Shown here piece by piece: positions 6,731 through 23,404 of a stretch of 64,000 nucleotides of DNA. The first letter of the stretch is position 1, and every line of letters starts with the position of its first letter. The DNA lies in assembly GCA_016223245.1 (NCBI GenBank), contig JACRPL010000009.1, forward strand, positions 1 through 64,000. The letters run 5' to 3'. The translations under genes and the position numbers were made by a program. Source of the stretch: Candidatus Saganbacteria bacterium (GTDB lineage: Bacteria; Margulisbacteria; WOR-1; XYC2-FULL-46-14; XYC2-FULL-37-10). Below the pieces are notes generated by a model. The model saw nothing but the letters and a program-made list of their open reading frames with translations, was not told the DNA's origin and did no database searches.

Positions 6731-6785
6731 TAGTCTCAATGTCGATTGTTTGAGAAAAAAGATTATGGACAAGGAAGCAAAAAAC

Positions 6786-6979: not shown

Positions 6980-7011
6980 GTTTATTTTATGTAAAAAGGA
7001 GGTGAAAAAAC

Positions 7012-7218
7012 ATGGCAGTTGAAAAAGCGATTGGAAGCTCCAGCTTGGTAGAAGTGGTTGATCGCATCCTTGATAAGGGATTAGTGATTGATGCTTGGGT
7101 TAGAGTTTCATTGGTTGGTATCGAAATTCTGGCGATTGAAGCCAGAGTGGTCGCCGCATCAGTAGAAACTTATCTAAAGTATGCTGAAGCAATCGGCTTG
7201 ACGGCGACCGCAGCTTAA
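7012..7218 (+). CDS. gvpA: gas vesicle structural protein GvpA
   Basis: A 68-residue GvpA, the small hydrophobic protein that polymerises into ribs forming the gas-vesicle wall. It shows the canonical sequence from [20 protein letters not shown] through [20 protein letters not shown] to [12 protein letters not shown], covering both amphipathic helices and the beta-turn-beta core. Length is standard. A strong AAAGGAGGTG ribosome site precedes the ATG. It is the first gene of the long gas-vesicle operon and is followed by a hairpin that could favour its own expression over downstream genes. Confidence 0.97.
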
Positions 7219-7234
7219 GGCTCGGTCAGTCATA

Positions 7235-7284
7235 AGGGGCCTGCCGAAGCATCCTTTTAAAGCATGCCTCGCCAGGAATCCCCT
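7235..7284 (+). other. imperfect hairpin between gvpA and the next gene
   Basis: AGGGG (7235-7239) and CCTG (7240-7243) can pair with CCCCT (7280-7284) and CAGG (7273-7276), with further partial pairing inside. There is no T run, so it is more likely an RNA-stabilising or processing structure, or a leaky terminator, that raises gvpA mRNA relative to the distal genes. Confidence 0.4.
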
Positions 7285-7297
7285 GAAATAAAAAATT

Positions 7298-7858
7298 ATG
7301 GAAACTAAAGAAATTGAAGTTGGATACCCATTTGAAAATCTAATGCAGGATTATGTGGAACTTCGCGAAAATCTTGCCCGTAATGGCTCTGTGCGCAGAA
7401 AAGATTTCGATAGCATGATGCAGGGGGTTCTTTCAGGCCAGGATAAAAAGGAAAGAGAAATAAAAACCTTGGTCAATGATTATTTTAATGAGCAAAAACA
7501 GATTACCCAAACCTTAAAAGAAAAGTTGGAAGAGTTTAAAGAATCCCTTGCCCGGGGAGATTCTCAAAGAGTTCAAGAGTTTCAGGCTTTTATTAAAGAC
7601 ATTCTTTCAAAGCAGGAACAACGCAAAGAAGAAACAACCATGAAATTGAAGAAATTTCAAAAAGAACAGGAGGTGATGTCAGGAAAACTGAAAGAGCTTT
7701 TAGCCAAGGGACGGGATCTTCGCGCTAAAGATTTCAAAATAATGCTTCAAGAATTAGGAAGCCAAAAAGATGCGAGATTGGCCCGTCAGGAAGAACGAAA
7801 AGAAGAAGTGCGCGAGATTTTGGCTTCCGCGCACAAATATAAAAGAGGAGGGAAATAA
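7298..7858 (+). CDS. coiled-coil repeat protein, GvpC-like candidate
   Basis: A 186-residue, highly charged, almost wholly helical protein. It contains about three degenerate repeats of 50-57 residues, each with a pattern like L..ka.LA+G...R..DF..ml...l..Q..R+.E (around residues 19-70, 76-130 and 135-180). No homologue can be named with certainty. Its position directly after gvpA, its helical repeats and its charge resemble GvpC, the protein that laces the outside of the gas-vesicle shell, so a shell-binding role is inferred. A general coiled-coil scaffold is the alternative. Confidence 0.6.
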   Translation: METKEIEVGYPFENLMQDYVELRENLARNGSVRRKDFDSMMQGVLSGQDKKEREIKTLVNDYFNEQKQITQTLKEKLEEFKESLARGDSQRVQEFQAFIKDILSKQEQRKEETTMKLKKFQKEQEVMSGKLKELLAKGRDLRAKDFKIMLQELGSQKDARLARQEERKEEVREILASAHKYKRGGK

Positions 7859-7860
7859 AC

Positions 7861-8427
7861 ATGGGATTAGCAGATGAGATGAAAAAGATTGCGGAAGATA
7901 TTGTGGTGGCCCATGATCTGCGGGTAAAAGCTGTCGGTGATATAGTAACCGATGTGCATAAAACCCTTAAGGGTTTTGCTTCGGACAGAAAAAAGATGAG
8001 CGCCGAGCAAGCTAAAGACCTGACAGATTTTGTAGCCGAGTTAGCTAAAAACGTGGGCAGTTTAATCAAGGGATTTACAAAAGATCGTAAAGCCATGGCA
8101 GGCGAGTTAAAAGAAACACTGGCAAAAGCAGTCAAAGACATTGAGACCTATGTGGCAAAAAAGCTAAAAGAGTTTTCCGATAGCCACGCGGCAATGAGTG
8201 ACGAACTCAAAAAAGAGCTTGATAAGTATGTCGCAGGCATTGCTTCAGACATCAAAAAACTCCTGGGTGGCTACGCTAAAGACAGAAAAGAACTTGCCGC
8301 TGAATTAAAGAAAATGGCTGCCAATTGGCAGGAGGGGACTAAAGGTCTGGCCAAGAAAAAAGGAGCCAAATCCAAAGTTAAAGCCGGCGCCAGTGTAAAA
8401 TCCGTAGAAGAAGTGATCGGCCGATAG
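7861..8427 (+). CDS. 33-residue-repeat helical protein, GvpC-like candidate
   Basis: A 188-residue Ala/Lys/Asp-rich helical protein. About four repeats of 32-34 residues are visible between residues 35 and 160, each with a block like L.KGF.KDRK.MA.ELK followed by a helix (blocks LKGFASDRKKM, LIKGFTKDRKAM, LKEFSDSHAAM, LLGGYAKDRKEL). A period near 33 is the hallmark of cyanobacterial GvpC, which binds GvpA ribs and stiffens the vesicle. The sequence itself is not clearly GvpC, so the assignment is inferred from period and position. The C-terminus is Lys-rich. It starts 2 bases after the previous stop. Confidence 0.6.
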   Translation: MGLADEMKKIAEDIVVAHDLRVKAVGDIVTDVHKTLKGFASDRKKMSAEQAKDLTDFVAELAKNVGSLIKGFTKDRKAMAGELKETLAKAVKDIETYVAKKLKEFSDSHAAMSDELKKELDKYVAGIASDIKKLLGGYAKDRKELAAELKKMAANWQEGTKGLAKKKGAKSKVKAGASVKSVEEVIGR

Positions 8428-8462
8428 GAAAGAAGAGTAAAAAACTCTTCGAGGGGGCAGAG

Positions 8463-8702
8463 ATGCCGGAGAAAAAACTTTTAACCTGTGCTTTTTGTAA
8501 AGGAACGGGGAAAGATCCCTTTGATCTTCTTTCCCGACTTGCTTCTTGTCAGGTCTGTGGCGGAAAAGGGGAAGTAGAAGTTTATGAACCGATAACAGAG
8601 TGTCCCTTTTGCAAAGGAACAGGCGTTTACCCGCATAGTCGGCTGACCTGTTCTTTTTGCCGAGGGAAGGGAGATTTTACCCGTAGAGGAGGTGAAAAAT
8701 AA
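8463..8702 (+). CDS. stand-alone DnaJ-type zinc-finger protein
   Basis: A 79-residue protein consisting of four CxxCxGxG motifs (CAFCKGTG, CQVCGGKG, CPFCKGTG, CSFCRGKG). This is the full Cys-rich zinc-binding region of DnaJ (Hsp40), without a J domain or substrate-binding domain. In DnaJ this region binds two zinc ions and helps hold unfolded clients. In this operon a J domain occurs separately on the GvpF/L protein at 12606, so the two may act together in folding or delivering vesicle proteins; that link is inference. The ATG is preceded by GAGGGGG. Confidence 0.85.
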   Translation: MPEKKLLTCAFCKGTGKDPFDLLSRLASCQVCGGKGEVEVYEPITECPFCKGTGVYPHSRLTCSFCRGKGDFTRRGGEK

Positions 8703-8703
8703 A

Positions 8704-9624
8704 ATGTATACAAACACAGATGAAATAAACACGGTTCTTGAGCCAACCCCGATGCCGGATTTTGTGGAAACGCCTTATATCAAAGATATTACCGCTCGCG
8801 CTCTTAATTATGTAAAAGCGGGTTTTCCCGTGCATTTCAGAGGGGCTTCCGGCACCGGCAAGACTACTCTTGCTATGCATATTGCCGGTAAACTTAAAAG
8901 GCCCATGGTGCTGCTGCATGGGGATGAGGAGTTTACTACTTCTGATCTGGTGGGCGGTGAATATGGCTATCGCATACGCAAGGTGGTTGATCGTTTTATC
9001 TCCAGAGTATGTAAAACGGAAGAGGATATGGTAAAGCGCTGGGTTGATAATCGCTTGACGGTGGCTTGCAAGTACGGGTTTACATTAATATATGATGAGT
9101 TTACCCGCTCCCGGCCGGAAGCCAACAATATCCTTCTTTCTATTTTAGCGGAAAAGATCATGGATCTGCCGGTAGGGAGAGGTGATGAGCCCTATCTAAA
9201 AGTTCATCCGGAATTTACTGCCATTTTTACTTCTAATCCGGAAGAATATGCCGGAGTGCACCGCAGTCAGGATGCTCTGCGCGACCGCATGGTTACCATG
9301 GATCTGGACCATTTTGATTATGAGACAGAAGTCGCGATAACTAAGGCAAAATCCAAGATCCCCAGAAAAGAAGCGGAGATAATTGTAAATATTGTCAGGG
9401 GATTAAGGGAATCTGAAAAGTGTGAATTTGCGCCCACCATTCGCGGCTGCATCATGATCGCCAAAGCGCTCAAAATCCAAGATTTAAATCTGGTAAGCTC
9501 CAATGGCAGCTTTTTGAATATTTGTCAGGATGTCTTGGCTTCAGAAACCAGCAGGGTGGGATCAAAAACCAATCAGACCAAGGTTAAAGAAATAGTTAAG
9601 GGATTGGTTAAAAAGTGCGCTTAG
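8704..9624 (+). CDS. gvpN: gas vesicle AAA+ ATPase GvpN
   Basis: A GvpN protein of 306 residues, a MoxR-like AAA+ ATPase needed for vesicle enlargement. Walker A GASGTGKTTLA is near residue 50, Walker B LIYDEFTRS follows near residue 125, and the family opening FVETPYIKDITARAL is present. ATG 8704 is preferred over an upstream in-frame GTG at 8692 because GAGGAGG (8685-8691) would overlap the GTG. The gene begins at the end of the zinc-finger gene and is followed by a 30-base gap. Confidence 0.95.
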   Translation: MYTNTDEINTVLEPTPMPDFVETPYIKDITARALNYVKAGFPVHFRGASGTGKTTLAMHIAGKLKRPMVLLHGDEEFTTSDLVGGEYGYRIRKVVDRFISRVCKTEEDMVKRWVDNRLTVACKYGFTLIYDEFTRSRPEANNILLSILAEKIMDLPVGRGDEPYLKVHPEFTAIFTSNPEEYAGVHRSQDALRDRMVTMDLDHFDYETEVAITKAKSKIPRKEAEIIVNIVRGLRESEKCEFAPTIRGCIMIAKALKIQDLNLVSSNGSFLNICQDVLASETSRVGSKTNQTKVKEIVKGLVKKCA

Positions 9625-9653
9625 CCCGGACTTATTAGAAAGGAGGTAGGATC

Positions 9654-9959
9654 GTGAAAAGGAGAACCCAAAGGTTAGGTTTGAGAGACGTTAAATCCAT
9701 GCAATCCATTAGCGCCCGTTCTATTCCCCGGGTACAGAGATCAAGCTATCTGGATTTGTACCTCATGACAGAAAAGAGGCGGCGGCTGGAAAAAGAAATT
9801 TCAATCTTAGAAGTAAGGAGGAATATTGCCAGAAAGCAATTAACCATCATCAATAAAAACATTGATAAATTACAAGGTGAGGGGATTGAAAAACAAAGGG
9901 GAAGGTCTCGTCCGCCCGCTTCCAAGCCGATGAAAAGGATGGCGATACATTATGGTTAA
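9654..9959 (+). CDS. small basic coiled-coil protein of the gas-vesicle operon
   Basis: A 101-residue protein starting at GTG 9654 after AAAGGAGG. The N-terminus is basic and Arg/Ser-rich (MKRRTQRLGLRDVKS); the middle (about residues 35-75) is a short coiled coil with EKRRRLEKEISILEVRR; the C-terminus is basic. No named family is recognised. Its place between gvpN and the Hsp20 gene suggests an accessory assembly role. The stop overlaps the start of the next gene by 8 bases. Confidence 0.6.
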   Translation: MKRRTQRLGLRDVKSMQSISARSIPRVQRSSYLDLYLMTEKRRRLEKEISILEVRRNIARKQLTIINKNIDKLQGEGIEKQRGRSRPPASKPMKRMAIHYG

Positions 9960-10443
9960 AGAACGAGGAGAATTTGGCTTGGGCGGGCTTTTTAAAGGTC
10001 TTGAAACGTTGATCGATCTCGCGGCAAAAGTAAAAGAGGCTGGCGGAGAAATAAAAAAGGAAGGAGAGATCGATCTTAGCCATCTTAAGGAAGGGATGAA
10101 GGGGGTCTTCGGGGTTACAATCAGAACTGCGGAGGGCGGCAAGCCGGTAGTTGAGCCCTTTGGCAACATCAAAAAGACGCCTCAAGGGCCAAGCGTTGAG
10201 GCCGAGAGGGAACCCATCACCGATGTCTTTGATGAAACAGACGAAATTCGCGTCTATGCCGAAATGCCGGGAGTAAATAAGACTGATATTAAATTAGATT
10301 TAAAAGATGATATTCTTGATATTTCAGCCAAAAGCAGGGACAGGAAATATCATAAAGAGGTTTTACTGCCTCTGAAATTAAAGGTAGAAAATTTAATTTT
10401 TAGTTATAAGAATGGTATTTTGGAGGTTAAGATTAAAAAGTGA
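9952..10443 (+). CDS. gvpH: Hsp20-type small heat-shock protein, GvpH-like
   Basis: A 163-residue protein. An N-terminal segment with [15 protein letters not shown] and basic helices precedes an alpha-crystallin (Hsp20) domain at about residues 85-163, seen as [15 protein letters not shown], then [11 protein letters not shown] and the terminal [12 protein letters not shown] strand. GvpH of halophilic archaea and similar proteins in bacterial gas-vesicle clusters have this architecture and act as holdases for vesicle proteins. It overlaps the next gene by 4 bases (GTGA), so translation is probably coupled. Confidence 0.85.
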
Positions 10444-12602
10444 AAGATTTCTTAACCCTAAAGGTAAAAGAGGCACTATCTAAGGATGTCGGCAGGGCGA
10501 TTGCCCGGATTGATCCCGAAGACATGAAGGAACTTAGCTTAGAAGTGGGCAGTATCGCGCAGGTTGAAGGGAAAAGAAAAACGGCGGTGAAGATAATGCC
10601 TTGTTATGCTGAAGAGAGAAGGAAAAAGCTTGTCCAAATGGATGGAATTTCACGAGAGAACGCGCAGGTTGGTCTTGATGAAAAGGTAAAACTTCGGAAA
10701 ATCGACTGCAAGCCCTCTTCTAAAATCACCCTTGCTCCTTTAACCGTATCCAGTTTACTTCGAGGGGAAACAGATGCTAAATATATAGGGTCCCTGATGG
10801 AAGGACTGCCTGTCGTCAAGGGGGACAGGATCAGGGCGATACTTTTTGGTTCAAGATCGTGTGATTTTAAAGTGTTGGATACTATTCCCGATGGTTTTGT
10901 TTTGATGAGCCCTGCTGCCTTATTAAGAATGGAGAGCAAGGGAGGAAAAGAGCCCTGTCCCGTAAAACTTTCATATGAAGATATCGGCGGGCTTTCTACA
11001 CAGATACAAAGGATCAGGGAGATGATCGAACTCCCTCTCCGTTATCCTCAAGTCTTTGACCGGCTGGGGATTGATGCGCCCAAGGGGGTTTTACTTTATG
11101 GTCCTCCGGGAACCGGCAAAACATTAATTGCGCGGGCGGTAGTAAATGAGACTGACGCTTATTTTGTAAGCATTTCCGGTCCGGAAGTGATGGGGAAATT
11201 TTATGGTGAATCCGAAGGCAGGTTGCGCTCCGTTTTTGAAGATGCTCAAAAACATGCTCCGGCTATTATTTTTATTGATGAAATAGACGCCATTGCTCCC
11301 AAAAGAGAAGAGATGGGGGGCGAAAAACAGGTGGAGCGGCGGGTGGTGGCGCAACTCCTCTCTCTGTTGGATGGTTTGGAATCTCGCGGTCAGATCATTG
11401 TAATTGGCGCTACTAATATTCCTAATACTTTAGATCCCGCCTTGAGAAGGCCCGGCCGATTTGACCGGGAAATATCCGTCCCCATTCCGGATAAAAATGG
11501 GCGGCTGGAAATTTTGCAGATCCATACCCGCGGCATGCCTCTCTCAAAAGATGTCAGTCTTGAGAAATTAGCTGAAATTACCCATGGTTTTGTCGGGGCG
11601 GACATTCAGGCCTTAGGCCGGGAAGCGGCAATGTCCGCCTTAAGAAAAATCCTTCCCAAAATAGATTTTGAAATGATGGAAATCCCATATGAGACCCTGC
11701 TTAAACTGGAAGTAACCATGGATAATTTTAGAGAAGCGATGAAGGAAGTTGAACCCTCTGCTATTCGAGAAGTTTTTGTAGAGGTGCCGGACGTCAAATG
11801 GGAAGATGTTGGAGGATTGGATAATATCAAGGAAGAATTGAAAGAAGCGGTTGAGTGGCCACTTAAATATGCGGATGTTTTTAAGCAAGCAAGCACCAAC
11901 CCGCCCAAGGGGATTTTACTCTATGGAGAACCAGGAACCGGCAAGACCCTTTTAGCCAAAGCCGTGGCGCACGAAAGCGGCGTGAATTTTATCTCGATCA
12001 AAGGGCCGCAGCTGATTAGCCAGTATGTGGGTGAATCAGAGCGGGGAGTAAGAGAGATATTTAAGAAAGCAAAACAAGCGGCGCCGACTGTTCTTTTTTT
12101 AGATGAAATTGACAGTCTAGTGCCTAAAAGAGGGTCAAGTTCAACGGATGCTCATGTGACGGAGCGGGTGATCAGCCAGTTTTTAACGGAAATGGACGGG
12201 ATCGAAGAGCTTAAAGGGGTGGTAGTTTTAGCCGCGACTAACCGATTGGATTTGATCGACCCTGCCCTTCTACGCAGCGGTAGATTCGATCTCTTACTCG
12301 AATTGCCTCGGCCTGATACCAAGGCGCGCTTGGAAATATTTCGCATTCATTCCAGGAATAAGCCGTTAGAAAAGGATATTAACTTGAAAGACCTGGCGAA
12401 AAGAACCGAAGGTAAAGCAGGCGCTGACATTGAATTCCTCTGCCGCCGGGCGGCAATGCTTGCCATAAGAGAATTTATCGGGCATAAATGTCCGCAGATG
12501 GATGGCCCGGTAATAAAGCTGAAGCATTTTGAAGATGCTCTTTTATTGGCAGAAAATCAAACTGTAGGGCAAGGGTTTATCCCTTGCTTGCAGGAGAAAT
12601 AA
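10440..12602 (+). CDS. CDC48/VAT-type AAA+ ATPase
   Basis: A 720-residue protein with a double-psi-barrel-like N domain (about residues 1-165) and two AAA+ modules. Module 1 has [12 protein letters not shown] and [14 protein letters not shown] with an RRPGRFDRE arginine-finger block; module 2 has [27 protein letters not shown] and LLRSGRFD. This is the CDC48/p97/VAT architecture, which unfolds or extracts proteins. It starts at GTG 10440 overlapping the Hsp20 stop. It is more familiar from archaea and eukaryotes. Within this operon it probably remodels or disaggregates Gvp proteins; that role is inference. Confidence 0.95.
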
Positions 12603-12605
12603 ATT

Positions 12606-13577
12606 ATGTTGGAAAAATATATTTACGGCATTATAAATTCAAACGAAGAGAAATCTATTAATATCGAAAACGAGAATGCCTATGTAATTTCTTGCGATGG
12701 CATTTCCGCGGTAGTGAGCGATGCGGAAAAAGTTGACTATCGCAATTTGCCCCGAGAGACCTTGGCCAGATGCCTTGTCAAACACCAACAAGTGATTGAG
12801 AAGGTTATGAGGAACTTTACGATTATTCCTATGCGCATGGGAACTTACGCGACGGATGAAGAAGAAGTCAGGCGGATATTGGCAAAAGGGTATCCATTAA
12901 TAAAAGACATATTAAACCGAGCGGCTGATACTGTTGAAATCGATGTCGTCGCGACTCGGAATAATTTTGAACAGATACTCAAAGAAGTCGGAAATGAACC
13001 GGAAATTAAGGAGTTTAAAGAAAAAATAATAACCGAGGCAAAAGGGATTACCCTTGAAGACCAGTTGAAAATTGGAGCTTTGGTTAAAAAAGCCTTGGAT
13101 GCAAAAAAGGAAAGCATCGCTTCTGAAATACAAACGGCGTTAAAACCTGTCAGCCTGGATGTTAAAACGCATGCGGCCATGAATGATCAAATGGTAATGA
13201 ATGCTGCTTTTCTGATTAATATTGTAAACCGAGAAGAATTTGATCAAAAAATAGAGGAGCTGAATGCTAAATATGCGGACAAACTAAATTTTCGCTGTGT
13301 CGGGCCGCTTCCATCCTACAGCTTTTATACTCTTGAAGTCTTGGAGCTGAAATTTGATGAAATAGAATGGGCAAAAAAGAAATTAAGGCTGCGAAGCGGG
13401 CAGATCGGCGAAGATGAAGTAAAAAGAGCGTATAAGAAGTTCGCAAAATTATCTCATCCCGATGTAAAGGAAGGCGGAGATGCGGAGTTCGAGGAGATAA
13501 CCAAGGCCTATAAGCTTTTGAAAAACTATTCCCGGGCGGGAAATGACGCTTTGCTGGTCAAAGTAAGGGAAAGTTAA
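12606..13577 (+). CDS. gvpF/L: GvpF/L protein with C-terminal J domain
   Basis: A 323-residue protein. Residues 1 to about 250 match the GvpL/GvpF family (start EKYIYGIINS; later IPMRMGTYA; VMNAAFLINI; GPLPSYSF). The C-terminus adds a J-domain-like module from about 252, with EDEVKRAYKKFAKLS, the HPD tripeptide at 284-286, and EFEEITKAYKLL. J domains stimulate Hsp70 ATPases. Four GvpF/L paralogues are in this operon and only this one carries the extension. It suggests that Hsp70 is recruited to nascent vesicles, with the zinc-finger half of a DnaJ supplied by the gene at 8463. Confidence 0.9.
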   Translation: MLEKYIYGIINSNEEKSINIENENAYVISCDGISAVVSDAEKVDYRNLPRETLARCLVKHQQVIEKVMRNFTIIPMRMGTYATDEEEVRRILAKGYPLIKDILNRAADTVEIDVVATRNNFEQILKEVGNEPEIKEFKEKIITEAKGITLEDQLKIGALVKKALDAKKESIASEIQTALKPVSLDVKTHAAMNDQMVMNAAFLINIVNREEFDQKIEELNAKYADKLNFRCVGPLPSYSFYTLEVLELKFDEIEWAKKKLRLRSGQIGEDEVKRAYKKFAKLSHPDVKEGGDAEFEEITKAYKLLKNYSRAGNDALLVKVRES

Positions 13578-14344
13578 TGGAAGAAGGCAAATATATCTAT
13601 TGCATTATCGGCACAAAGCAGGAGAGGAACTTTGGCCCTATTGGCACAGGAGAAAGGGGGAATGAAGTTTTAACTATTGGCTATGATGATTTGAGCATGG
13701 TGGTAAGCAGTCATCCCTTGGGCAAACTGATTGTCAATCGTGAAAATATGCTGGCGCATGAGAAGGTAATAGAGAAAGTTATGGAAGAATTTGACGCGGC
13801 GCTGCCGGTCAGGTTTGGAACCGTCGCCTCTTCCGCCGATGAAATAAGGGGGCTTCTGGATAGAAGATATCGGGAATTTAAGAACCTGCTTATGGCAATG
13901 GACCATAAGATAGAATTAGGCGTCAAGGGAATATGGAAAAATATGGATGAAATATTTAATGAAATTGTGGCAGAAAATAGAGAAATTAAGGGACTGAAGG
14001 CGGAAATAGAAAAGCAAAAAGACAAAAAAAACATCCAAGCCAAGATGGCGGTTGGAAAAATGATTGAAGACGCGCTGCAAGCAAAAAAAGAAAAAGAAAG
14101 CGGGGTGATAATTGAAAAATTAAAAAAAACCTCCCTTGATTACAAGCTTAATAAAACCATTAGCGATGAAATGTTTATTAACGCCGCCTTTCTGGTGGAT
14201 AAGGGCAGGGAAAAAGAGTTTGATAATATTATGGCCGACTTGGATCGAAAATATAAAAATCGGGCTAAATTTATGTATGCGGGGCCTTTGCCGCCATATA
14301 ATTTTGTAAATATCACAATTTATCCGGGAAAATGGGAGGCGTAA
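13577..14344 (+). CDS. gvpF/L: GvpF/L family gas vesicle protein
   Basis: A 255-residue GvpL/GvpF-family protein with the usual markers: GKYIYCIIGTK at the start, DLSMVVSSHPLGK, NMLAHEKVIEKVM, LPVRFGTVA, then a charged helical region, MFINAAFLVDK and the closing GPLPPYNFV. GvpF binds GvpA and takes part in nucleation of vesicles. The ATG overlaps the preceding stop (TAATG). No odd residues are apparent. Which of the four paralogues is functionally GvpF or GvpL cannot be decided by reading. Confidence 0.92.
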   Translation: MEEGKYIYCIIGTKQERNFGPIGTGERGNEVLTIGYDDLSMVVSSHPLGKLIVNRENMLAHEKVIEKVMEEFDAALPVRFGTVASSADEIRGLLDRRYREFKNLLMAMDHKIELGVKGIWKNMDEIFNEIVAENREIKGLKAEIEKQKDKKNIQAKMAVGKMIEDALQAKKEKESGVIIEKLKKTSLDYKLNKTISDEMFINAAFLVDKGREKEFDNIMADLDRKYKNRAKFMYAGPLPPYNFVNITIYPGKWEA

Positions 14345-14346
14345 AA

Positions 14347-14814
14347 ATGGTTTTAATTGGTACCGAAGCTGAAGTTGTAAATGTTATTACTAAATTAAAT
14401 GGAGCAAGTAAAAGTGAGATCAATCAGGAAATCAGCTTGACTTTGGACTACATCGGCTATATTTGCAGTTATTTGGTCAGGAAGGGACATCTGATCTATT
14501 TCAGCGGCCGCTATTATCCGGCCGGCACGCCGCTTGAGCTTTTACCCAAAAGACAACCAAAAGTGGATAAAAGCTTTGCCAGTGAGATTGCCGATGAAGT
14601 AGCCAAGAGAATAGGAATAAGTCGCGGTGAGAGGTTGGAGGAAAGGCGGGAAGAGAGAGTAAAAATAAAAACTGACTTTGATGTTCCAATTAAAGACGAA
14701 AGTGTGGGATTAGAAAGCAATATTAATAAAGTCGGCGCAAAGCCGGAAAAAGAAAAGGATGATATTGATGAATTAATTGAATCGTTAACCAGGGTGCGAA
14801 AAGGAGGTAGATAA
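14347..14814 (+). CDS. winged-helix-like protein, paralogue 1
   Basis: A 155-residue protein starting at ATG 14347 (GGGAGG upstream). An in-frame ATG at 14332 would overlap the previous gene. Residues 5-65 form a winged-helix-like fold (GTEAEVVNVITKL, then LDYIGYICSYLVRKGHLIYF) that closely parallels the protein at 15868. A charged, probably disordered tail follows. The two paralogues flank the actin-like gene. A DNA- or protein-binding adaptor is inferred, by analogy with partition systems in which an HTH adaptor links a filament to cargo; it could instead be a transcription factor. Confidence 0.65.
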   Translation: MVLIGTEAEVVNVITKLNGASKSEINQEISLTLDYIGYICSYLVRKGHLIYFSGRYYPAGTPLELLPKRQPKVDKSFASEIADEVAKRIGISRGERLEERREERVKIKTDFDVPIKDESVGLESNINKVGAKPEKEKDDIDELIESLTRVRKGGR

Positions 14815-14815
14815 A

Positions 14816-15862
14816 ATGGCGGCAAGCAGTGAAGAAAGCAAGGTAAAAGAGCTTAAGGGCGAAATACAAAGAGGCAAGGGAGTCGATATTGGGACCATGT
14901 TTGTTAAATGCGCGCAAAAGGAGGAAGACAAAATTGTTTTCCGCTCTCAGCGCAATTCCTTCTTTGAAATAGAGCATAACGATTTTACCAAAAAGATTCT
15001 CGACAATTCTAATGTGCGCTACATTGTCAAGGAAAACAAGCTTTACGTGGTAGGCGATGAGGCGATGCAGTTTGCCAACATGTTCAATCGCGAGGTTAGA
15101 AGACCCTTAGCTAAAGGGGTTATCAGCCCTTCGGAAAAGGAAGCTTTGCCCATGGTGGAATTGCTTATAAAAAGCGCGGTTGGCCAACCCAATCATCAAG
15201 GAGAAATCGTTTATTTTTCGGTGCCGGGTGAACCTCTGGATGCGGAGTTTAATATTATTTATCATTGCAAGGTTCTCGAAGGATTTTTGCATACCCTTGG
15301 CTACACGCCGAAATCAATTAATGAAGCTCATGCCATCGTGCTCTCTGAGCTTGCCGAAGAGGACTTTACCGGTATTGGTCTTTCCTTTGGTGGCGGAATG
15401 GTCAATGTTTGCTTTAGTTTTATGTCGGTGCCGATCTTCAAATTTTCAGTGACCAAAGCGGGTGATTGGATAGATTATCAGACTGCTATGGCGGTGGATG
15501 AAACGGCCAGCCGCGTCTCAGCTATAAAAGAAGCATCTCTGGATCTAACTAAGAAAGACGGTTTAAGTAAAATAGAAACCGCCTTGTCGATTTACTATAA
15601 CCACTTGATTGAATACGTGATAGAGAATATAAAGCAAGAGCTGGACAAAACCAAAAGAATGCCGCAGATTGATAACCCGATAACCATCGTTTTGTCCGGC
15701 GGTACTTCCCTACCCAAGGGGTTTGATCAAAGATTTAGACAAATTTTAGAACAGTTAAAATTGCCACTGCCGGTTGGCAAGGTAAGAATGGCTGCTCAAC
15801 CTCTGCGTTCCGCAGCCAAAGGAGCCTTGGTTGCCGCCAGCGCGGATGAAACGAGGAGGTGA
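14816..15862 (+). CDS. actin/Hsp70-superfamily ATPase in the gas-vesicle operon
   Basis: A 348-residue protein of the actin-like ATPase fold. The phosphate-1 loop GVDIGTMFVKCA is near residue 22, the phosphate-2 block GIGLSFGGGMVNVCF near residue 180, and the adenosine motif VLSGGTSLPKGF near residue 285. This order fits ParM/MreB/FtsA-like or Hsp70-like proteins; it has no Hsp70 substrate domain. No named family is recognised. It lies between two winged-helix paralogues within 2-5 bases. A role in positioning or segregating gas vesicles is suggested, comparable to the ParA-type proteins of some other gas-vesicle loci, but is inference. Confidence 0.8.
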   Translation: MAASSEESKVKELKGEIQRGKGVDIGTMFVKCAQKEEDKIVFRSQRNSFFEIEHNDFTKKILDNSNVRYIVKENKLYVVGDEAMQFANMFNREVRRPLAKGVISPSEKEALPMVELLIKSAVGQPNHQGEIVYFSVPGEPLDAEFNIIYHCKVLEGFLHTLGYTPKSINEAHAIVLSELAEEDFTGIGLSFGGGMVNVCFSFMSVPIFKFSVTKAGDWIDYQTAMAVDETASRVSAIKEASLDLTKKDGLSKIETALSIYYNHLIEYVIENIKQELDKTKRMPQIDNPITIVLSGGTSLPKGFDQRFRQILEQLKLPLPVGKVRMAAQPLRSAAKGALVAASADETRR

Positions 15863-15867
15863 TAAAA

Positions 15868-16122
15868 ATGGCAAGCGGTGGAACAGAAGCAAAGGTCTTG
15901 GATGTGATTGCGCGCTTAAAGTTCCCGGATAGGAGGCAGATCTGCAGGGCTTTAGGAATTTCAATAGAGTATGTGGATTATTTGTTAAATTATCTGCGCA
16001 GGAAGGGACGTTTACTCTACAACAAGGGAAGATATTTTCTTCCCGGTGCAAGGCGAAGGAAAGTTGGTGTTTTAAGAAAGATAAGGAAGAAAAGGAAACC
16101 AGGCAGAAAAAAGAAAAGATAA
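15868..16122 (+). CDS. winged-helix-like protein, paralogue 2
   Basis: An 84-residue protein with start ATG 15868 behind GAGGAGGTGATAAAA, which also holds the actin-like gene's stop. Residues 4-60 match paralogue 1: GTEAKVLDVIARL, then ICRALGISIEYVDYLLNYLR and RKGRLLYNKGRYFLPG. The tail is extremely basic (RRRKVGVLRKIRKKRKPG), suggesting nucleic-acid or membrane binding. It is a shortened version of paralogue 1 without the acidic tail. Function is unknown. Confidence 0.65.
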   Translation: MASGGTEAKVLDVIARLKFPDRRQICRALGISIEYVDYLLNYLRRKGRLLYNKGRYFLPGARRRKVGVLRKIRKKRKPGRKKKR

Positions 16123-16127
16123 TATTG

Positions 16128-16928
16128 ATGGAACAAGCAGTTAAAGAAGGCAAGTATATTTATTGCATAATAAAGGAAAGCAAACCAAAAAAATTTGGCG
16201 TGCTGGGGATTGGCGGCCGGGGGGATCAGCCGTACACAATTTGTTCCGATGGCGTGTCAGCTGTGGTCAGCAACGCTCCGATTAAAAAGTATGCTGTTTC
16301 CAGGGATAATACCCTGGCGCATGAAAAGGCCATAGAAGAAGTGATGAAGGAATACACGGTTTTGCCGGTGCGCTTTTGCACTATTGCGGAAAATGAAAAC
16401 GTGGTCAGGAAGATTTTAGAACATGAGAAGGATAAACTTACGCCTCTTTTTAATAAGGTGGAAGGTAAAAGAGAGTTGGGATTAATGGCGCATTTTAAAG
16501 AAGAAGCGATCTATGCGGAAGTTTTAGAAAAATATCAAGATATAAAGCGGTTAAAAAAGGAGATTGAAATGTTGCCGCCGCTCAAAACTTATCATCAGCG
16601 CATGGAGATCGGAAGAATGGTGGAAACTGCCCTGCGCGAAGAAAATGAGACTTATAAGGAGCTTATTTTAGAATCTTTAATTCCTTTAGCCGAGGAGGTA
16701 AAGGAAAATAATCGCTATGGCGAGATCATGATTATCAATGCTGCCTTTTTGGTAAAAAAGGAAAAAGAGGCGGAGTTCGATGCAAAAGTTAACGAGCTGG
16801 ATGATAAATATGGCAGATTCATGAGATTTAAATATACCGGCAACCTGCCGCCTTTTAATTTCGTTAACTTAATAATTGACACTTCGACTTTCGCTCAGTG
16901 TCCAACAGGGAAGTACTCATGTTCATAA
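16128..16928 (+). CDS. gvpF/L: GvpF/L family gas vesicle protein
   Basis: A 266-residue GvpL/GvpF protein with GKYIYCIIKES, GVSAVVSNAPIKKY, TLAHEKAIEEVMKEYTVLPV and RFCTIA, and the terminal MIINAAFLVKK and GNLPPFNFVNLII. ATG 16128 is preferred over TTG 16125. The last 8-10 residues (CPTGKYSCS) overlap the gvpG start and include two Cys; they extend slightly past the normal end, so the overlap probably serves translational coupling. This is one of four paralogues. Confidence 0.92.
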   Translation: MEQAVKEGKYIYCIIKESKPKKFGVLGIGGRGDQPYTICSDGVSAVVSNAPIKKYAVSRDNTLAHEKAIEEVMKEYTVLPVRFCTIAENENVVRKILEHEKDKLTPLFNKVEGKRELGLMAHFKEEAIYAEVLEKYQDIKRLKKEIEMLPPLKTYHQRMEIGRMVETALREENETYKELILESLIPLAEEVKENNRYGEIMIINAAFLVKKEKEAEFDAKVNELDDKYGRFMRFKYTGNLPPFNFVNLIIDTSTFAQCPTGKYSCS

Positions 16929-17152
16929 TCGATGACATATTGCTTTTGCCTTTGCAGCCAGTATTGATGGTGGCAGAAAAGATCGATGAGATGGTTCAAA
17001 AAGAACTGTACGACGAGGATCGCATCAAGGAGAATCTAATGAATTTGCAGCTTAAACTGGATATGAACCAGATCAGCCAGGAAGAATATGAAAGACAAGA
17101 AAAAAACCTTTTAGAGCGCTTGAATCAAATTATATCGGAAAAGGAGGAGTAA
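16919..17152 (+). CDS. gvpG: gas vesicle protein GvpG
   Basis: A 77-residue GvpG. ATG 16919 gives the canonical opening MFIIDDILLLPLQPVLMVA, followed by an amphipathic helical tail ending EKNLLERLNQIISEKEE. An upstream in-frame GTG at 16898 would add seven residues and remove the typical N-terminus, so it is not used. GvpG is an accessory protein that interacts with GvpF/L during nucleation. It overlaps the end of the preceding GvpF/L gene by 10 bases. Confidence 0.92.
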   Translation: MFIIDDILLLPLQPVLMVAEKIDEMVQKELYDEDRIKENLMNLQLKLDMNQISQEEYERQEKNLLERLNQIISEKEE

Positions 17153-17155
17153 AAA

Positions 17156-17413
17156 ATGGCGAATATTGAAACGGTCGGGAAAACAGTTTCAGAATTTTTA
17201 AAGAAGGCCTTGAACGTTAAAGACGTGAAGGTTGTCAAAGTTGCTAAAATTGATAACAGTTGGGAATGCGAGGCCGAGGTATATGAAGAGAGCTCCTTTA
17301 TAAAATCACTGGGGCTTCCGACCAAAACTCAGGACCGCAACTTTTACAGCGTCAAACTGGATGCCGGATTGGAAGTGGAATCTTACGGGAGAATTAAGGA
17401 AGGAAGCGAATAG
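17156..17413 (+). CDS. gvpO: gas vesicle protein GvpO
   Basis: An 85-residue protein of the GvpO family. It has a predicted alpha-beta fold with an N-terminal helix (TVGKTVSEFLKKAL) and a beta-sheet region containing NSWECEAEVYE and LPTKTQDRNFYSVKLD. GvpO is required for vesicle formation in halobacteria and is common in bacterial clusters, where its biochemical role is unclear. It follows gvpG by 3 bases with AAAAGGAGGAG upstream. Confidence 0.9.
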   Translation: MANIETVGKTVSEFLKKALNVKDVKVVKVAKIDNSWECEAEVYEESSFIKSLGLPTKTQDRNFYSVKLDAGLEVESYGRIKEGSE

Positions 17414-17419
17414 TCGCCA

Positions 17420-18241
17420 ATGCTTATCTATGTGTATTGCATAACCAATATAGAGCCAAATCTAAACGGTTCCAAAGAACTGGTAAACAGTCTTTATTTT
17501 ATCAGTGAGCAGGGACTTTACGCTGTGGTAAGCGGAGAAAAGGAAGAAGAATATGGCCAGGAAAATCTGGAGAAGAACCTCTCTAATCTGGAATGGATCA
17601 AGCAAAAGGCCGCTCTGCATGAAAAAGTGATTGAACAAATTATGGAACAAGTCGGCGTGATTCCCTTTAAGTTTGGAACCCTGTTCAATAATGAACAAAA
17701 TCTGAAAACTATGCTGATTGAACATGGCGAGGAATTCAAGTCTGATTTAGACCGGCTTGCGGATAAAGAAGAATGGGGTATAAAGACCTATTGCGATAAA
17801 GAAAAATTAATACAAAATCTCAAGGTGGAAAATGAAGAGATGAAAGGAATTGACGATGAAATCAATATGGCTTCACCCGGCAAGGCTTTTATCTTAAAGA
17901 AAAAAAAGGAGGAATTGCTGAATATCGTCTTGAGTAAAACTCTCAACATTTATATTCAAGATAGTTTTAATCAATTGTGTAAACATTGCCAAGAAGGATG
18001 CCTTAATCGTTTATTGCCCAGAGAGGCTACCGGAAAGCATGAAGACATGATTCTAAACGCCGCCTTTTTAGTTGCCAGGAATAAAGTTCCCTATTTTAGC
18101 CAAGAAGTTGATTGCCTTAATTCTGATGGCAAAGAAAAAGGGGTTAACTTTGATTTAAGCGGTCCCTGGCCGCCTTATAATTTTTGCCTGCCCCGATCCG
18201 ATCGAGGTCAGCCCATGAATAAGAAGGTCCAAAATGAATAA
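17420..18241 (+). CDS. gvpF/L: GvpF/L family protein with a Cys cluster
   Basis: A 273-residue, divergent GvpL/GvpF protein: MLIYVYCITNIEP, ALHEKVIEQIM, VIPFKFGTLF, ILNAAFLVARNK and GPWPPYNFCL are visible. Unlike the other three paralogues it has a CxxCxxxC cluster at residues 187, 190 and 194 (QLCKHCQEGC) in the loop before the C-terminal domain, plus further Cys near the end. This could bind metal or form disulfides. Three residues do not make a complete classical zinc site, so partner residues are needed. It overlaps the next gene by 8 bases. Confidence 0.88.
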   Translation: MLIYVYCITNIEPNLNGSKELVNSLYFISEQGLYAVVSGEKEEEYGQENLEKNLSNLEWIKQKAALHEKVIEQIMEQVGVIPFKFGTLFNNEQNLKTMLIEHGEEFKSDLDRLADKEEWGIKTYCDKEKLIQNLKVENEEMKGIDDEINMASPGKAFILKKKKEELLNIVLSKTLNIYIQDSFNQLCKHCQEGCLNRLLPREATGKHEDMILNAAFLVARNKVPYFSQEVDCLNSDGKEKGVNFDLSGPWPPYNFCLPRSDRGQPMNKKVQNE

Positions 18242-18449
18242 TATTTATCATAAATCAAAGGATGTTTCTTTATTGGAAGTTTTAGACCGGGTATTAGAAG
18301 CAGGCGTAGTTATCTCCGGAGATATTGTAATATCCGTGGCTGATATAGATCTTGTTTATTTGGGTCTTCGCGCCTTGTTAAGTTCCGTGGAAACCATGGA
18401 GCAATTGAGAGGCGCTCCTATGGCTGGCCCCATGCAGGAATCAAACTAA
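18234..18449 (+). CDS. gvpJ: GvpA-family minor protein (GvpJ/S type)
   Basis: A 71-residue GvpA homologue with VSLLEVLDRVLEAGVVISGD, IVISVADIDLVYLGLRALLS and SVETMEQL. It retains the rib-forming core but differs from GvpA at the positions that mark the minor GvpJ/M/S group (GVVISGDIVISVADIDLVYLG). These proteins are thought to shape the conical tips or nucleate the shell. Start overlaps the upstream stop. GvpJ versus GvpS cannot be separated by eye. Confidence 0.88.
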   Translation: MNNIYHKSKDVSLLEVLDRVLEAGVVISGDIVISVADIDLVYLGLRALLSSVETMEQLRGAPMAGPMQESN

Positions 18450-18450
18450 A

Positions 18451-18765
18451 ATGGAAACGGAAGTTTTAGAAAAAGAAGAACGAAAATTAAAAGGATCCCT
18501 ACCCAACCGGCTTAATATAGATCCTAAGAATGTAGAAAAAGGGTTAGCTAAACTTGTTTTAACTCTGGTTGAGTTAATCAGGAAATTGCTTGAAAAACAA
18601 GCTATGCGGCGCATTGACGGCGGCTCTCTTTCTGATTCTGAAATTGAAAATGTGGGCGAAGCTTTGATGAAGTTGGAAACTAAAATGGGAGAATTAAAAG
18701 AGATCTTCGGGCTAAAAGATGAGGATTTGAATTTGAATCTAGGTCCTTTAGGAGATTTGATGTGA
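18451..18765 (+). CDS. gvpK: gas vesicle protein GvpK
   Basis: A 104-residue GvpK with the well conserved NRLNIDPKNVEKGLAKLVLT, LVELIRKLLEKQAMRRIDGG and the ending LNLNLGPLGDLM. GvpK is an accessory protein of vesicle assembly. Length is normal. It begins 1 base after the GvpJ-like gene and its stop overlaps the next start (GTGA). Confidence 0.95.
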   Translation: METEVLEKEERKLKGSLPNRLNIDPKNVEKGLAKLVLTLVELIRKLLEKQAMRRIDGGSLSDSEIENVGEALMKLETKMGELKEIFGLKDEDLNLNLGPLGDLM

Positions 18766-19028
18766 GACATGAGGAATATCCAAAAATAAGCTGTCCAATA
18801 TTTAAAAGACAAGAAACAGCAATAAAAGATATTACGGATAAAATTAATACGGCTAAAGGAATTAAGGGAAAAGCTGCCCTTGCAGAGGAGCTAGAAAAAG
18901 AAATAGAGGTGCTTCTTTCCTGTCCGGATTACGACGGCGAAAAGCTGGATTGCAGAAATTGTGAGTTCATAGCTAGCTTGCGCAAGCAAACAGCCGCGCT
19001 TATTAGACACGCAAGAAAATTAAGTTAA
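18762..19028 (+). CDS. small Cys-containing helical protein
   Basis: An 88-residue protein starting at GTG 18762, overlapping the gvpK stop. Four Cys occur as ISCPIF, LLSCPDYDG and a CRNCE pair, between and beside long helices (VLLSCPDYDGEKLDCRNCEF; then SLRKQTAALIRHARKL). This could be a zinc- or iron-sulfur-binding helical hairpin. No family is recognised. Its tight coupling to gvpK makes a vesicle-related role likely. Confidence 0.65.
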   Translation: MRHEEYPKISCPIFKRQETAIKDITDKINTAKGIKGKAALAEELEKEIEVLLSCPDYDGEKLDCRNCEFIASLRKQTAALIRHARKLS

Positions 19029-19038
19029 GGGGGATTTT

Positions 19039-19335
19039 ATGATTGAACAAAGAACGATGATGCATCCCATGCAGGCTACTAATCTGGCTGATATTTTAGA
19101 GCGGGTTTTAGATAAGGGAATTGTTATTGCCGGGGATATCAAAATTCAACTGGCTGATATCGATTTGCTTAATATTAAGATAAGGCTCTTAATCGCTTCC
19201 GTAGACAAAGCAATGGAGATGGGAATCAACTGGTGGCAGCAGGATACTTATTTATCAACCAAAGCCAAGGACAAAGCCATTGTCAAAGAAAATGAGGCAT
19301 TGAAGAAAAAATTGGAGCGTTTAGAGGCTAAATGA
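19039..19335 (+). CDS. gvpJ: GvpA-family minor protein (GvpJ/M type)
   Basis: A 98-residue GvpA-family protein. NLADILERVLDKGIVIAGDI and KIQLADIDLLNIKIRLLIAS give the minor GvpJ/M group pattern. A C-terminal extension of about 35 residues, absent from GvpA, ends in a short coiled coil (KENEALKKKLERLEAK). The extension may mediate contacts with the other accessory proteins. The stop overlaps the next ATG by 4 bases. It is the third GvpA-family gene in the locus. Confidence 0.88.
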   Translation: MIEQRTMMHPMQATNLADILERVLDKGIVIAGDIKIQLADIDLLNIKIRLLIASVDKAMEMGINWWQQDTYLSTKAKDKAIVKENEALKKKLERLEAK

Positions 19336-20015
19336 GAACTCTTATTTACGTTCCGATTATCCATACCAGCGCTGATCTGGGATCTTTGTCTAAAAATGTA
19401 AGTAAAATGGGAATAAAGGAATTGGGCGAAAAGGTTTGGGAAGAGCATCTAATTACGGTTGATGCTTTTTGGAGGACGATAGTGGATTATTTTGAAGGAA
19501 TAGAAGTGAAAGACATGAAAATTTATCAGGATGGCATGGTAGGGGAAGATGATGTTGGAAAGTTAATGGTTGAATCCGGCGCTCTGGCGGGAAGTAAAAA
19601 CCACGAATTAGTGCTGAATCTTATGAACCGGGGAGCTTTATTGGTTAAGACCGAAGATTATAAACTGGTTAAAGACGAAAGAGATAAATTGCTTTCTATA
19701 ACCGAGGATAAGTCTCTTATCCAAAAATTGATTGCCTTTTTAAAATACAAAATGGTTAAAGATCGGCTTTTAAAACAAAGAAATGAATATATTGCCGGGA
19801 GAATAGACAAAACTTTGGGCCCGGATGAGAGGGGCGTCCTTTTTATTGGCGCCTACCATAACCTTAAATGTCGCTTACCGAAAGATATTAGAATTACGGA
19901 GATAAAAGATGCTGATAAAATTAGAGAATACCATCAACTCCTCCCTTTTTGTAATAAAAAAAAGAAGAGGTTTGAGGAATTGAGCAAATATCTTACTTCC
20001 AGAGTTGAAGTTTAA
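19332..20015 (+). CDS. unknown protein with TraB/ChaN-like C-terminal motif
   Basis: A 227-residue protein, no certain family. The N-terminus LIYVPIIHTSADLGSL resembles the start of a Rossmann-like strand. Near the C-terminus RNEYIAGRIDKTLGP followed by GVLFIGAYHNLKCRLP recalls the TraB/ChaN type pattern, in which a helix with Arg and Asp/Glu residues precedes a strand ending in Gly-x-x-His. A charged middle segment contains many Lys. Its ATGA overlap with the GvpJ-type gene shows that it belongs to the operon. Function unknown. Confidence 0.55.
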   Translation: MRTLIYVPIIHTSADLGSLSKNVSKMGIKELGEKVWEEHLITVDAFWRTIVDYFEGIEVKDMKIYQDGMVGEDDVGKLMVESGALAGSKNHELVLNLMNRGALLVKTEDYKLVKDERDKLLSITEDKSLIQKLIAFLKYKMVKDRLLKQRNEYIAGRIDKTLGPDERGVLFIGAYHNLKCRLPKDIRITEIKDADKIREYHQLLPFCNKKKKRFEELSKYLTSRVEV

Positions 20016-20017
20016 AA

Positions 20018-20221
20018 ATGAGTGAAAAGGAAGATAATAAAGATGTTGGGAAACAATTGCTGGGGCTTTATCTTACCAGATATCAAGGTGAAGCCTATCG
20101 GCAGTTTGATGAAAAACGGGGCAGGGATTTGCTTTGGCCCTTTAAATTTGTGTGGTTTATTTTAGCGGAGTTATGGCGGTTATTGCAAATGCTGTTCGGA
20201 AGATCAAAGCAAAAGCCGTGA
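20018..20221 (+). CDS. small amphipathic/membrane-associated protein
   Basis: A 67-residue protein. The C-terminal half (DLLWPFKFVWFILAELWRLLQMLFG) is strongly hydrophobic and Trp-rich and could insert in a membrane or lie on a hydrophobic surface such as a vesicle. The N-terminal half is charged. No family is recognised. It starts 2 bases after the preceding stop, in the operon. Confidence 0.55.
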   Translation: MSEKEDNKDVGKQLLGLYLTRYQGEAYRQFDEKRGRDLLWPFKFVWFILAELWRLLQMLFGRSKQKP

Positions 20222-20293
20222 AGATTGAAAAATAAAGGAGGTGGCACGGAATCAGTGAATTGGCTTTTTTATTTTATTAGGAGGAGGCAAGAT

Positions 20294-20959
20294 ATGAATT
20301 TGCAAGTTAATTTGGGTTTCTTAAGTCCAGTTAAAGAAGTATTATTGATCGTTTCTCCCATGCTTTTGAACTTGCTGTATGCGCTGATTTTATTGCTTGT
20401 CGGTATTTTGATCGCCAAGGGGTTGCAATGGTTAGTAATAACAATATTTGAAGCTCTCCAACTCGACAAAGGATCGAAGCAAATTGGTTTTACTGAACTT
20501 TTAACCAAAGGCGGGACCAAAAAAAGTCCTACTGAACTTTTGGGGGATTTAATTTATTGGCTGTCAATTTATGTGACCGTAACAACAACGGCAAATCTTC
20601 TAGGATTAGCTTCAGCAAAGGCTTTGCTGGAAGGATTGCTTGCCTATTTGCCAGCGGTATTTTCTGCCGCCTATATTTTAGGCGTGGGTGTTTTTGTGGC
20701 GATTTTAATTGCCGCAATAGTTTTAATCATTTTAAATAATATTGGCTTGTCGAATGCGAACACCATAGCAAAGATCGTGCAATACGCGATTGTTATTTTT
20801 GCTTTCCTGGCGGCGATAGGCCAGCTTGGCATTCCAGCAAATTGGATCGTATCCTCCATCCAATTGGTGGTGGGTGCGATTGCTCTATCTTTTGCGATTG
20901 CTTTTGGCCTGGGAGCTAAAGATAAGGCTTCAGAGCTTTTGGATAAATTCTTTGGATAA
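20294..20959 (+). CDS. multi-helix membrane protein, TM-helix (MscS-like) family
   Basis: A 221-residue integral membrane protein with about five transmembrane segments. It resembles the conserved TM-helix repeat proteins (PF05552) often annotated as MscS-like channels: LLVGILIAKGLQWLV, then later KIVQYAIVIFAFLAAIGQLGI and the SFAIAFGLGAKDKASELL ending. The soluble C-terminal domain of real MscS is absent. ATG 20294, behind AGGAGGAGG, is used; an upstream TTG frame at 20225 lacks support. A role in turgor sensing near gas vesicles would be speculation. Confidence 0.7.
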   Translation: MNLQVNLGFLSPVKEVLLIVSPMLLNLLYALILLLVGILIAKGLQWLVITIFEALQLDKGSKQIGFTELLTKGGTKKSPTELLGDLIYWLSIYVTVTTTANLLGLASAKALLEGLLAYLPAVFSAAYILGVGVFVAILIAAIVLIILNNIGLSNANTIAKIVQYAIVIFAFLAAIGQLGIPANWIVSSIQLVVGAIALSFAIAFGLGAKDKASELLDKFFG

Positions 20960-20977
20960 AGTTTGATTTTTTGATGA

Positions 20978-21007
20978 GGAGGGGGCAAGGGATCATTCCT
21001 TGCCTCC
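20978..21007 (+). terminator. hairpin terminator after the core gas-vesicle genes
   Basis: GGAGG-GGGCAAGG pairs with CCTTGCCTCC across a GATCATT loop, followed by TTATAATTAT instead of a strict T run. It lies at the end of the membrane-protein gene, so it may end the main operon or act as a partial terminator before the last two genes. Confidence 0.5.
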
Positions 21008-21020
21008 TTATAATTATCAC

Positions 21021-21401
21021 ATGAAGTTGCGAGAAAATCTTTATAAAATCATTATTATTGCTTTGCTCCTGGGTTTCTGGGGTTATCTTTTATATCCTAT
21101 AGTTTTGGAAAATAATATCAGGCCTGATTTTCACGAAATTTTAGCGATGGGCCAGTCTATGGCCAAATTAATTAAGTATTCCCAGGTCTTTCTTCTTGCT
21201 CTGATAGGACTTTTGGCGGCTTTAGCAGTCACAAAATTATCTAATCTTTACTTCACTCGACGTTGGCAAACCAAGGAACGAAATCGCATAGCAAAACAAA
21301 TTAAAATCTATAAACAAACCCACCATTATCTTTCTTCTTTTGCCGATCTGGTTTCGGAACCATTTGACATAGTTAACTTGTGGAACAAAGCGCGGCAATG
21401 A
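21021..21401 (+). CDS. small membrane protein, two TM segments
   Basis: A 126-residue protein starting at ATG 21021. Two hydrophobic segments are visible (IIIIALLLGFWGYLLYPIVL, and VFLLALIGLLAALAVTKL near residue 60), followed by a basic soluble tail with RRWQTKERNRIAKQIKIYKQ. No family recognised. Its stop overlaps the next ATG (ATGA), so it forms a pair with the TPR protein. Confidence 0.55.
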   Translation: MKLRENLYKIIIIALLLGFWGYLLYPIVLENNIRPDFHEILAMGQSMAKLIKYSQVFLLALIGLLAALAVTKLSNLYFTRRWQTKERNRIAKQIKIYKQTHHYLSSFADLVSEPFDIVNLWNKARQ

Positions 21402-22471: not shown

Positions 22472-22654
22472 TGTTTCCGGGAAGATGGAATATCCAATAT
22501 AGATATTATCACTACTGTCCCAACGTTGAAGGTGCAAAAACGCGGAAAGGCTTGATAATTAAGGGGTAGAGCAGGATTATAGTTGAAACGGATTTGAACT
22601 CAAAAGGCAATAAAGGGCATGCTTTCAGGGGTAAACACCTGGAGGTAATGACAT

Positions 22655-23224
22655 ATGAATACTGGGCTAACTTTATTCGCTCAAGTTATGGATTTCATTC
22701 CGCGGTACGACAATGCGTGAAACGCTATCATGGCAATTACAAGGTAAAAAGTTTTTTCTGTTGGGATCAATATTTAAGTATGGCTTTTGCTCAGTTGACC
22801 TATTGGGCAAGCCTTCGGGATATAGAAACTTGCCTGCGAACAATGAAGCCGAAATTACACCATGTCGGATTGCATGGCGGAATAGCAAGAAACACTTTGG
22901 CCAATGCCAACAGCGTTCGCAATTGGAGAATCTACGCGGACTTTGCCCAGATACTGATCCGGAAAGCGAGAAGGTTATACGCAGACGAAGACTTCGGTGT
23001 GGAACTCAAACACGTGGCCTACGCTCTGGACGCCACGGTGATCGATTTGTGTCTTTCCTTGTTTCCCTGGGCCAAATTTCACAAGACCAAAGCCGCAGTA
23101 AAACTGCATACTCTTTTAGATTTACGGGGCAGTATACCGACGACAGTTATCATTACCCCGGGCAATATTCACGAAGTAAATATACTCGACGAATTGCGTT
23201 TGGAACCGATGGCGATTTACATCG
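22655..23224 (+). pseudogene. IS4-family transposase, frameshifted and truncated
   Basis: ATG 22655 (GGAGG upstream) encodes MNTGLTLFAQVMDFIPRY, the usual N-terminus, but runs to TGA near 22720. The rest lies in another frame from about 22713: CVKRYHGNYKVKSFFCWDQY, FAQLTYWASLRDIETCL, NTLANANSVRNWRIYADFAQ, then ALDATVIDLCLSLFPWAKFH and KTKAAVKLHTLLDLRGSIPT. The first catalytic Asp is in ALDATVIDL. Similarity stops after HEVNILDELR near 23200, so the second catalytic Asp and the C-terminal third are gone. It is an inactive remnant. Confidence 0.85.
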
Positions 23225-23400: not shown

Positions 23401-23404
23401 TAAT

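Follow-up and report, generated by a model that had tools for sequence, protein, structure and literature searches.

A volactin-family actin and the winged-helix protein encoded directly upstream of it (wH1) form a conserved two-gene unit within a gas vesicle (gvp) operon of Candidatus Saganbacteria. We lean towards the view that the two proteins make up a two-component cytoskeletal cassette, which would position gas vesicles or share them out in a MamK-like manner. The unit was studied in a window of 64,000 nucleotides, by which we mean the whole stretch of DNA analyzed here.

Three tandem genes inside a gas vesicle operon

The gvp operon of the window spans positions 7012..19335 on the + strand. 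It encodes two coiled-coil proteins, gvpA (7012), gvpN (8692), an HSP20-like GvpH (9952), a CDC48 ATPase (10440), GvpF/L genes (12606, 13577, 16128, and 17420), gvpG (16898), a gvpO-like gene (17156), gvpJ/S, gvpK (18451), and GvpA-family genes (GvpA/J; 18234 and 19039). GvpA, GvpF/L, GvpG, GvpK, and GvpN are thus all present, and the cluster shares GvpA/J, F/L, G, K, N, O, and H with the known clusters of Halobacterium, Bacillus, Anabaena, and Serratia. However, the reviews and papers on these clusters that we consulted mention no actin. Our literature search, which covered openly licensed papers, gave no precedent for an actin encoded among gvp genes. A ParA-type gene in the gvp locus of Serratia, taken as established in the preliminary description of this DNA, is not mentioned in the article that describes this cluster of 19 genes (PMC4982088).

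Three open reading frames on the + strand, separated by 1 and 5 bases and showing clear Shine-Dalgarno sequences, lie in tandem between two GvpF/L genes (13577..14344, PF06386, E 4e-63, and 16128..16928, PF06386, E 4e-67, both on the + strand). They encode wH1 (14347..14814, 155 aa), the actin-like protein (14816..15862, 348 aa), and a second winged-helix protein, wH2 (15868..16122, 84 aa), which is a paralogue of wH1 (39% identity over 57 residues, E 7e-15). An actin-fold protein does therefore sit between two winged-helix paralogues inside the operon, as had been proposed, but this two-sided bracket is not conserved. Among the gvp-linked loci examined, only the window has wH2 downstream of the actin; what recurs beside gvp genes in other genomes is wH1 followed by the actin, and not the triplet. 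The opposite charges ascribed to the two tails hold for wH2, whose C-terminus is strongly basic (+16 within 24 residues), but not for wH1, which ends in 51 residues of almost no net charge (-1) with a conserved motif that wH2 lacks. Small proteins made of the winged helix only, related to wH1 and wH2, occur at other sites in three volactin-bearing gvp clusters, where two to four of them are consecutive (L018 2660-3932, L010 2536-3100, and L013 1625-2441).

The winged-helix domain of wH1 (residues ~6-58, 14362..14520, + strand) was modelled by AlphaFold2 with a pLDDT of ~92. Foldseek matched it to generic wHTH proteins (best E 1.3e-3), among them the archaeal centromere-binding AspA of pNOB8. 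No family of Pfam, NCBIfam, or PHROG matches wH1. The domain is found in volactin-bearing gvp clusters, and neither in the volactin-less gvp clusters L066-L071 nor in volactin loci without gvp genes. Since winged helices commonly bind DNA, a role in DNA partition or regulation is conceivable.

The surroundings of the unit show several further features. The stretch at 8463-13577 carries a set of chaperone-like genes, found again in related loci, with a stand-alone DnaJ-type zinc domain (PF00684), the HSP20-like GvpH, CDC48, and a GvpF that ends in a J-domain (PF00226, E 1.9e-8). About 140 bases before gvpA there is a stretch of 20 C (6851-6870). In the relative G018, a G/C run of 18 bases is found ~1 kb upstream of gvpA, where a divergently oriented gene for an XRE-type regulator ends (L009 974-991). 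Since C runs of at least 12 occur at only two places per genome, it is possible that the run makes the gas vesicle operon phase-variable. Just past the cluster, at 22594-23476, a frame-broken DDE transposase remnant (DUF4372, DDE_Tnp_1) adjoins a tRNA-Glu (23405-23476, - strand), which was the only RNA element found in the window. Lying where the cluster ends, they suggest that the gvp genes may form a mobile island whose limit is there.

The actin-like protein is a member of the Volactin family

Judging from family profiles, the central gene encodes a volactin. Its product matches PF25216 (Volactin) with an E-value of 4e-90 and 303 bits over profile positions 3-321 of 321, the curated cut-off being 35 bits, and it thus belongs to the same family as VolA of Haloferax volcanii (HVO_2015). 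The Pfam profiles of MreB, ALP_N, and actin match it weakly, and its matches in Pfam (4/4) and NCBIfam (4/4) are all to filament actins. A catalytic sugar kinase or another non-filament fold had been considered as a possible outcome of structure searches. The structure and profile searches returned volactin, followed by MreB, MamK, and BeeR, and the family profiles rule out a sugar kinase or other enzyme fold. The actin fold inferred from the nucleotide-binding motifs also stood, except that the phosphate-2 loop has the volactin form, LSFGGGMVN, which lacks the Asp of actin and MreB.

When a profile of the relatives of the window volactin was searched against the PDB, the nearest solved relatives were 5ljv and 5jyg (E 4e-4), which we take to be MamK filaments (both entries are titled 'Actin-like ATPase'). 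The NCBIfam MamK profile gave 38 bits, below its cut-off of 400, and a PHROG 'partition protein' profile matched with E 6e-6, against 4e-90 for Volactin. The AlphaFold model of the protein is poor (pLDDT 51) and was excluded as independent proof; its best Foldseek matches were BeeR, MreB, FtsA, and PilM.

The window volactin shares 44% identity with those of haloarchaea (~44% over at least 90% of the length for Haloarcula and Natrinema), which have the same form of the phosphate-2 loop. In Haloferax, volactin forms dynamic filaments in vivo, with tips that touch the membrane (PMC10869688). The haloarchaeal actin Salactin of Halobacterium salinarum, which forms dynamic filaments and has a role in DNA sharing, at least as cited in PMC10869688, is described as a separate actin. 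Unlike the haloarchaeal volactins, the window protein is bacterial, lies in a gas vesicle operon, and has a winged-helix protein as its putative adaptor. No gvp genes lie close to volactin in the haloarchaeal loci examined, where the upstream gene encodes a protein with four hydrophobic stretches. Four haloarchaeal plasmid records carry a volactin (three from Haloarcula and one from Natrinema), and there the upstream protein is conserved (36% identity; L023 6872-7828, L024 6974-7897) and is a candidate membrane anchor. The L024 protein has an LKGLKGG stretch near its C-terminus. The similarity of the upstream protein to the tail described below is no more than weak.

The cassette recurs in gas vesicle clusters

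Using the window volactin as the query against 84,980 species genomes, we found 14 loci with close relatives (68-87% identity) in named genomes, all of which sit among gvp genes. The names of these metagenome-assembled genomes (MAGs) refer to Saganbacteria, Bacteroidetes, Omnitrophota, Elusimicrobia, Nitrospirae, Nitrospinae, Scalindua, Parcubacteria, and Lentisphaerae. They are assigned to about eight phyla, although how many of these are independent is uncertain, as some loci (L011 and L019) are near-identical across claimed phyla; such loci point to horizontal spread, mis-binning, or both. The source genome (1.65 Mb, a single volactin copy) shares its class with G018, where volactin lies on a Candidatus Saganbacteria contig. 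Among gvp-linked loci with a contig long enough to tell, wH1 is always the gene directly upstream of volactin, with a diverged copy in L020.

Three Omnitrophota gvp clusters (L066, L067, and L069) have the same gene order without wH1 and volactin, and there the stop codon of one flanking gvpF abuts the start codon of the other. The pair is hence a discrete cassette, and volactin is dispensable for this type of cluster. More broadly, GvpF/L was found in 8 of the 237 Omnitrophota and 16 of the 246 Planctomycetota genomes sampled, of which a single one in each phylum has a volactin beside gvp genes (1/8 and 1/16; G058, G065). As the pair is absent from most gvp clusters, vesicles can be produced without volactin. 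It seems somewhat probable to us that the wH1-volactin cassette joined a horizontally spread type of gas vesicle operon.

The family as a whole has a different distribution. Among the genomes sampled, 98 of 246 from Planctomycetota, 8 of 237 from Omnitrophota, and 10 of 198 from Nitrospirota have a volactin above the Pfam cut-off. Those of Planctomycetota (L105-L144 and others) are nearly always away from gvp genes, and in the loci examined no gvp genes were found near volactins outside the gvp-linked group. An occurrence mostly away from gvp genes, which would have spoken against the link to gas vesicles, therefore characterizes the volactin family overall but not the winged-helix pair, which we saw only inside gvp clusters. 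In a quick tree the gvp-linked volactins group together (SH-aLRT 97), with the non-gvp sequences L057 and L105 inside or beside this group.

Other volactin loci have neighbors of their own. Omnitrophota loci L058-L065 have two volactins in tandem, of which the second is extended by a long N-terminal stretch; a tail-bearing partner and coiled-coil proteins come next. Some Nitrospirota volactins (L096, L093, L033, and L057) have downstream genes for a small receiver-like protein and for a ParA/MinD ATPase, and ParA-type genes adjoin volactin in G081 and G262. G081 may also have a remnant of GvpO beside its volactin, in a masked part of the sequence. Relatives are also present in two very large genomes of uncultured phages (L025 and L026; LR745208.1 and LR756511.1, 485 and 595 kb).

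A C-terminal tail common to the neighbors of volactins

The C-terminus of wH1, VKIKTDFD..DES..LESNINKVGAKPEKEKDDIDELIESLTRVRKGG (14659..14811, + strand), is shared with proteins encoded next to volactins elsewhere. The consensus of its last 50 residues among wH1 proteins is IKIKTDFD..xDESxxLESNIxKIGxKxEKEKxDIDxxxxLLKxxxKG. A profile HMM of the tail alone, built from gvp loci only, was searched against 3092 ORFs of 72 non-gvp volactin loci. It gave 8 matches at E<=0.1, all in genes adjoining volactin, and after iteration 42 matches, again all beside volactins; the few flagged as distant owed this solely to the choice of a long start or to a split volactin. A haloarchaeal protein among the iterated matches is a weak hit of doubtful alignment. 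In the reverse direction, an HMM of the non-gvp tails was searched against 1151 ORFs taken from the window and the gvp loci, and wH1 proteins made up 12 of the best 14 matches. The best match of this search, a Lys-rich protein at 23932-24237, was attributed to chance since the match is internal and of low complexity. A reversed-sequence control of the tail HMM gave nothing below E 1.4.

We then used an alignment of 16 tails, in which one asparagine is invariant (16/16), to search 20 genomes in six frames. All 20 matches at E<=1e-3 lie at most ~700 bases from a volactin, and the remainder of these whole genomes gave none. Some of the genomes had supplied rows of the alignment, others (e.g., G534, G321, G325, G369, and G505) had not. 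The tail resembles no known family in the libraries searched.

The same tail thus ends genes that adjoin volactins unconnected with gas vesicles, where it follows unrelated N-termini, namely coiled coils in Planctomycetota and Omnitrophota and a hydrophobic N-terminal segment in L105. Given that the tail is exclusive to volactin neighbors, wH1 is best read as a putative volactin adaptor. Since the tail both marks these neighbors and carries varied front ends, the simplest reading is that the tail would bind volactin while the front would set the cargo or the place.

Possible roles of the cassette

Location within a gvp operon is by itself no proof of function. Our proposal that the pair positions gas vesicles or shares them out draws on the filaments of Haloferax volactin and on MamK and Mad28, actins of organelle clusters able to space and place organelles (PMC12748827). 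Volactin would polymerize with ATP into dynamic filaments, as expected from its Haloferax homolog. wH1 would grip the filament through its conserved tail, which the exclusive association of this tail with volactin genes suggests, and its winged helix would face the cargo. The latter would most likely be the gas vesicles or their assembly sites, reached directly or via nucleoid DNA, so that vesicles would be spaced along the cell and divided between daughters as MamK does for magnetosomes. The likeness to MamK and Mad28 lies in an actin gene placed within an organelle cluster, which is the case for the 14 close relatives in their gvp clusters, and in MamK being the best profile match among solved structures. 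The actin family and the organelle differ. We know of no wHTH-tail partner of MamK.

The pair could instead help to build vesicles or to shape the cell, acting as a scaffold or ruler for growth or adjusting cell shape and free space. The cassette sits amid GvpF/L assembly factors, the same clusters encode the chaperone set (HSP20-like GvpH, CDC48, J-domain GvpF, and DnaJ zinc domain), and volactin influences cell shape in Haloferax (PMC10869688). However, the similar clusters L067 and L069 have the chaperone genes without the pair, and organelle actins of the MamK type offer a nearer precedent for an actin encoded in the operon of an organelle. We regard this explanation as unlikely.

A DNA partition system of the ParM/ParR kind, merely carried along by a mobile gvp island, is less probable still. 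A wHTH protein next to an actin follows the adaptor logic of ParM/ParR/parC (type II), as the preliminary description had noted. This explanation would also accommodate the PHROG match, the broken transposase and tRNA-Glu beside the cluster end, the ParA genes adjoining some other volactins, and the presence of pNOB8 AspA among the structural matches of wH1, even if we discarded the latter as support for a ParR because it reflects generic wHTH similarity at E 3e-3. Yet no parC-like repeat array was found near the wH1 and volactin genes, whether at 6400-7400 or at 14200-16250, and there were no matching tandem repeats at 4000-24000. The flanking genes of the window look chromosomal, and the cassette is always within the gvp operon, never at its edge. 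Given the lack of repeats in the regions scanned and of any match of wH1 to a known ParR family, we reject membership in ParMRC, from which the pair also differs by its distinct tail and its unconserved bracket. ParM/ParR is a fair analogy, in that a filament-type actin is paired with a likely adaptor; volactin (same family) and MamK (same logic) are better parallels.

It is very improbable that wH1 and wH2 regulate transcription of the gvp operon, with the actin as a sensor or bystander. Their domain is a generic wHTH and several small winged-helix proteins occur in the clusters L010, L013, and L018, but the tail of wH1 belongs to volactin neighbors without this domain, and in every locus wH1 is fused to the tail and lies directly before volactin. 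As for anti-phage defense, PADLOC gave no match.

Implications for gas vesicles and volactins

Little is known of how gas vesicles are placed and inherited, and the literature that we searched names no cytoskeletal partner. The cassette supplies two testable proteins, and natural clusters with and without it offer a ready comparison. The chances seem to us about even that the pair is a cytoskeleton dedicated to gas vesicles and that it illustrates a general rule, whereby bacterial, and possibly haloarchaeal, volactins would be coupled to cargoes or sites via adaptors with a common tail and variable fronts. We give equally balanced credence to the idea that these fronts are a winged helix for gas vesicles, a membrane segment, or a coiled coil, an adaptor rule that would be so far undescribed. 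The matter reaches well beyond haloarchaea, as volactin is common in Planctomycetota. The shared tail provides a handle on the volactin binding factors, which were 'as-yet unknown' in the first description of the protein (PMC10869688), and, should it bind volactin, it would serve as a portable tag with which to tether things to an actin filament.
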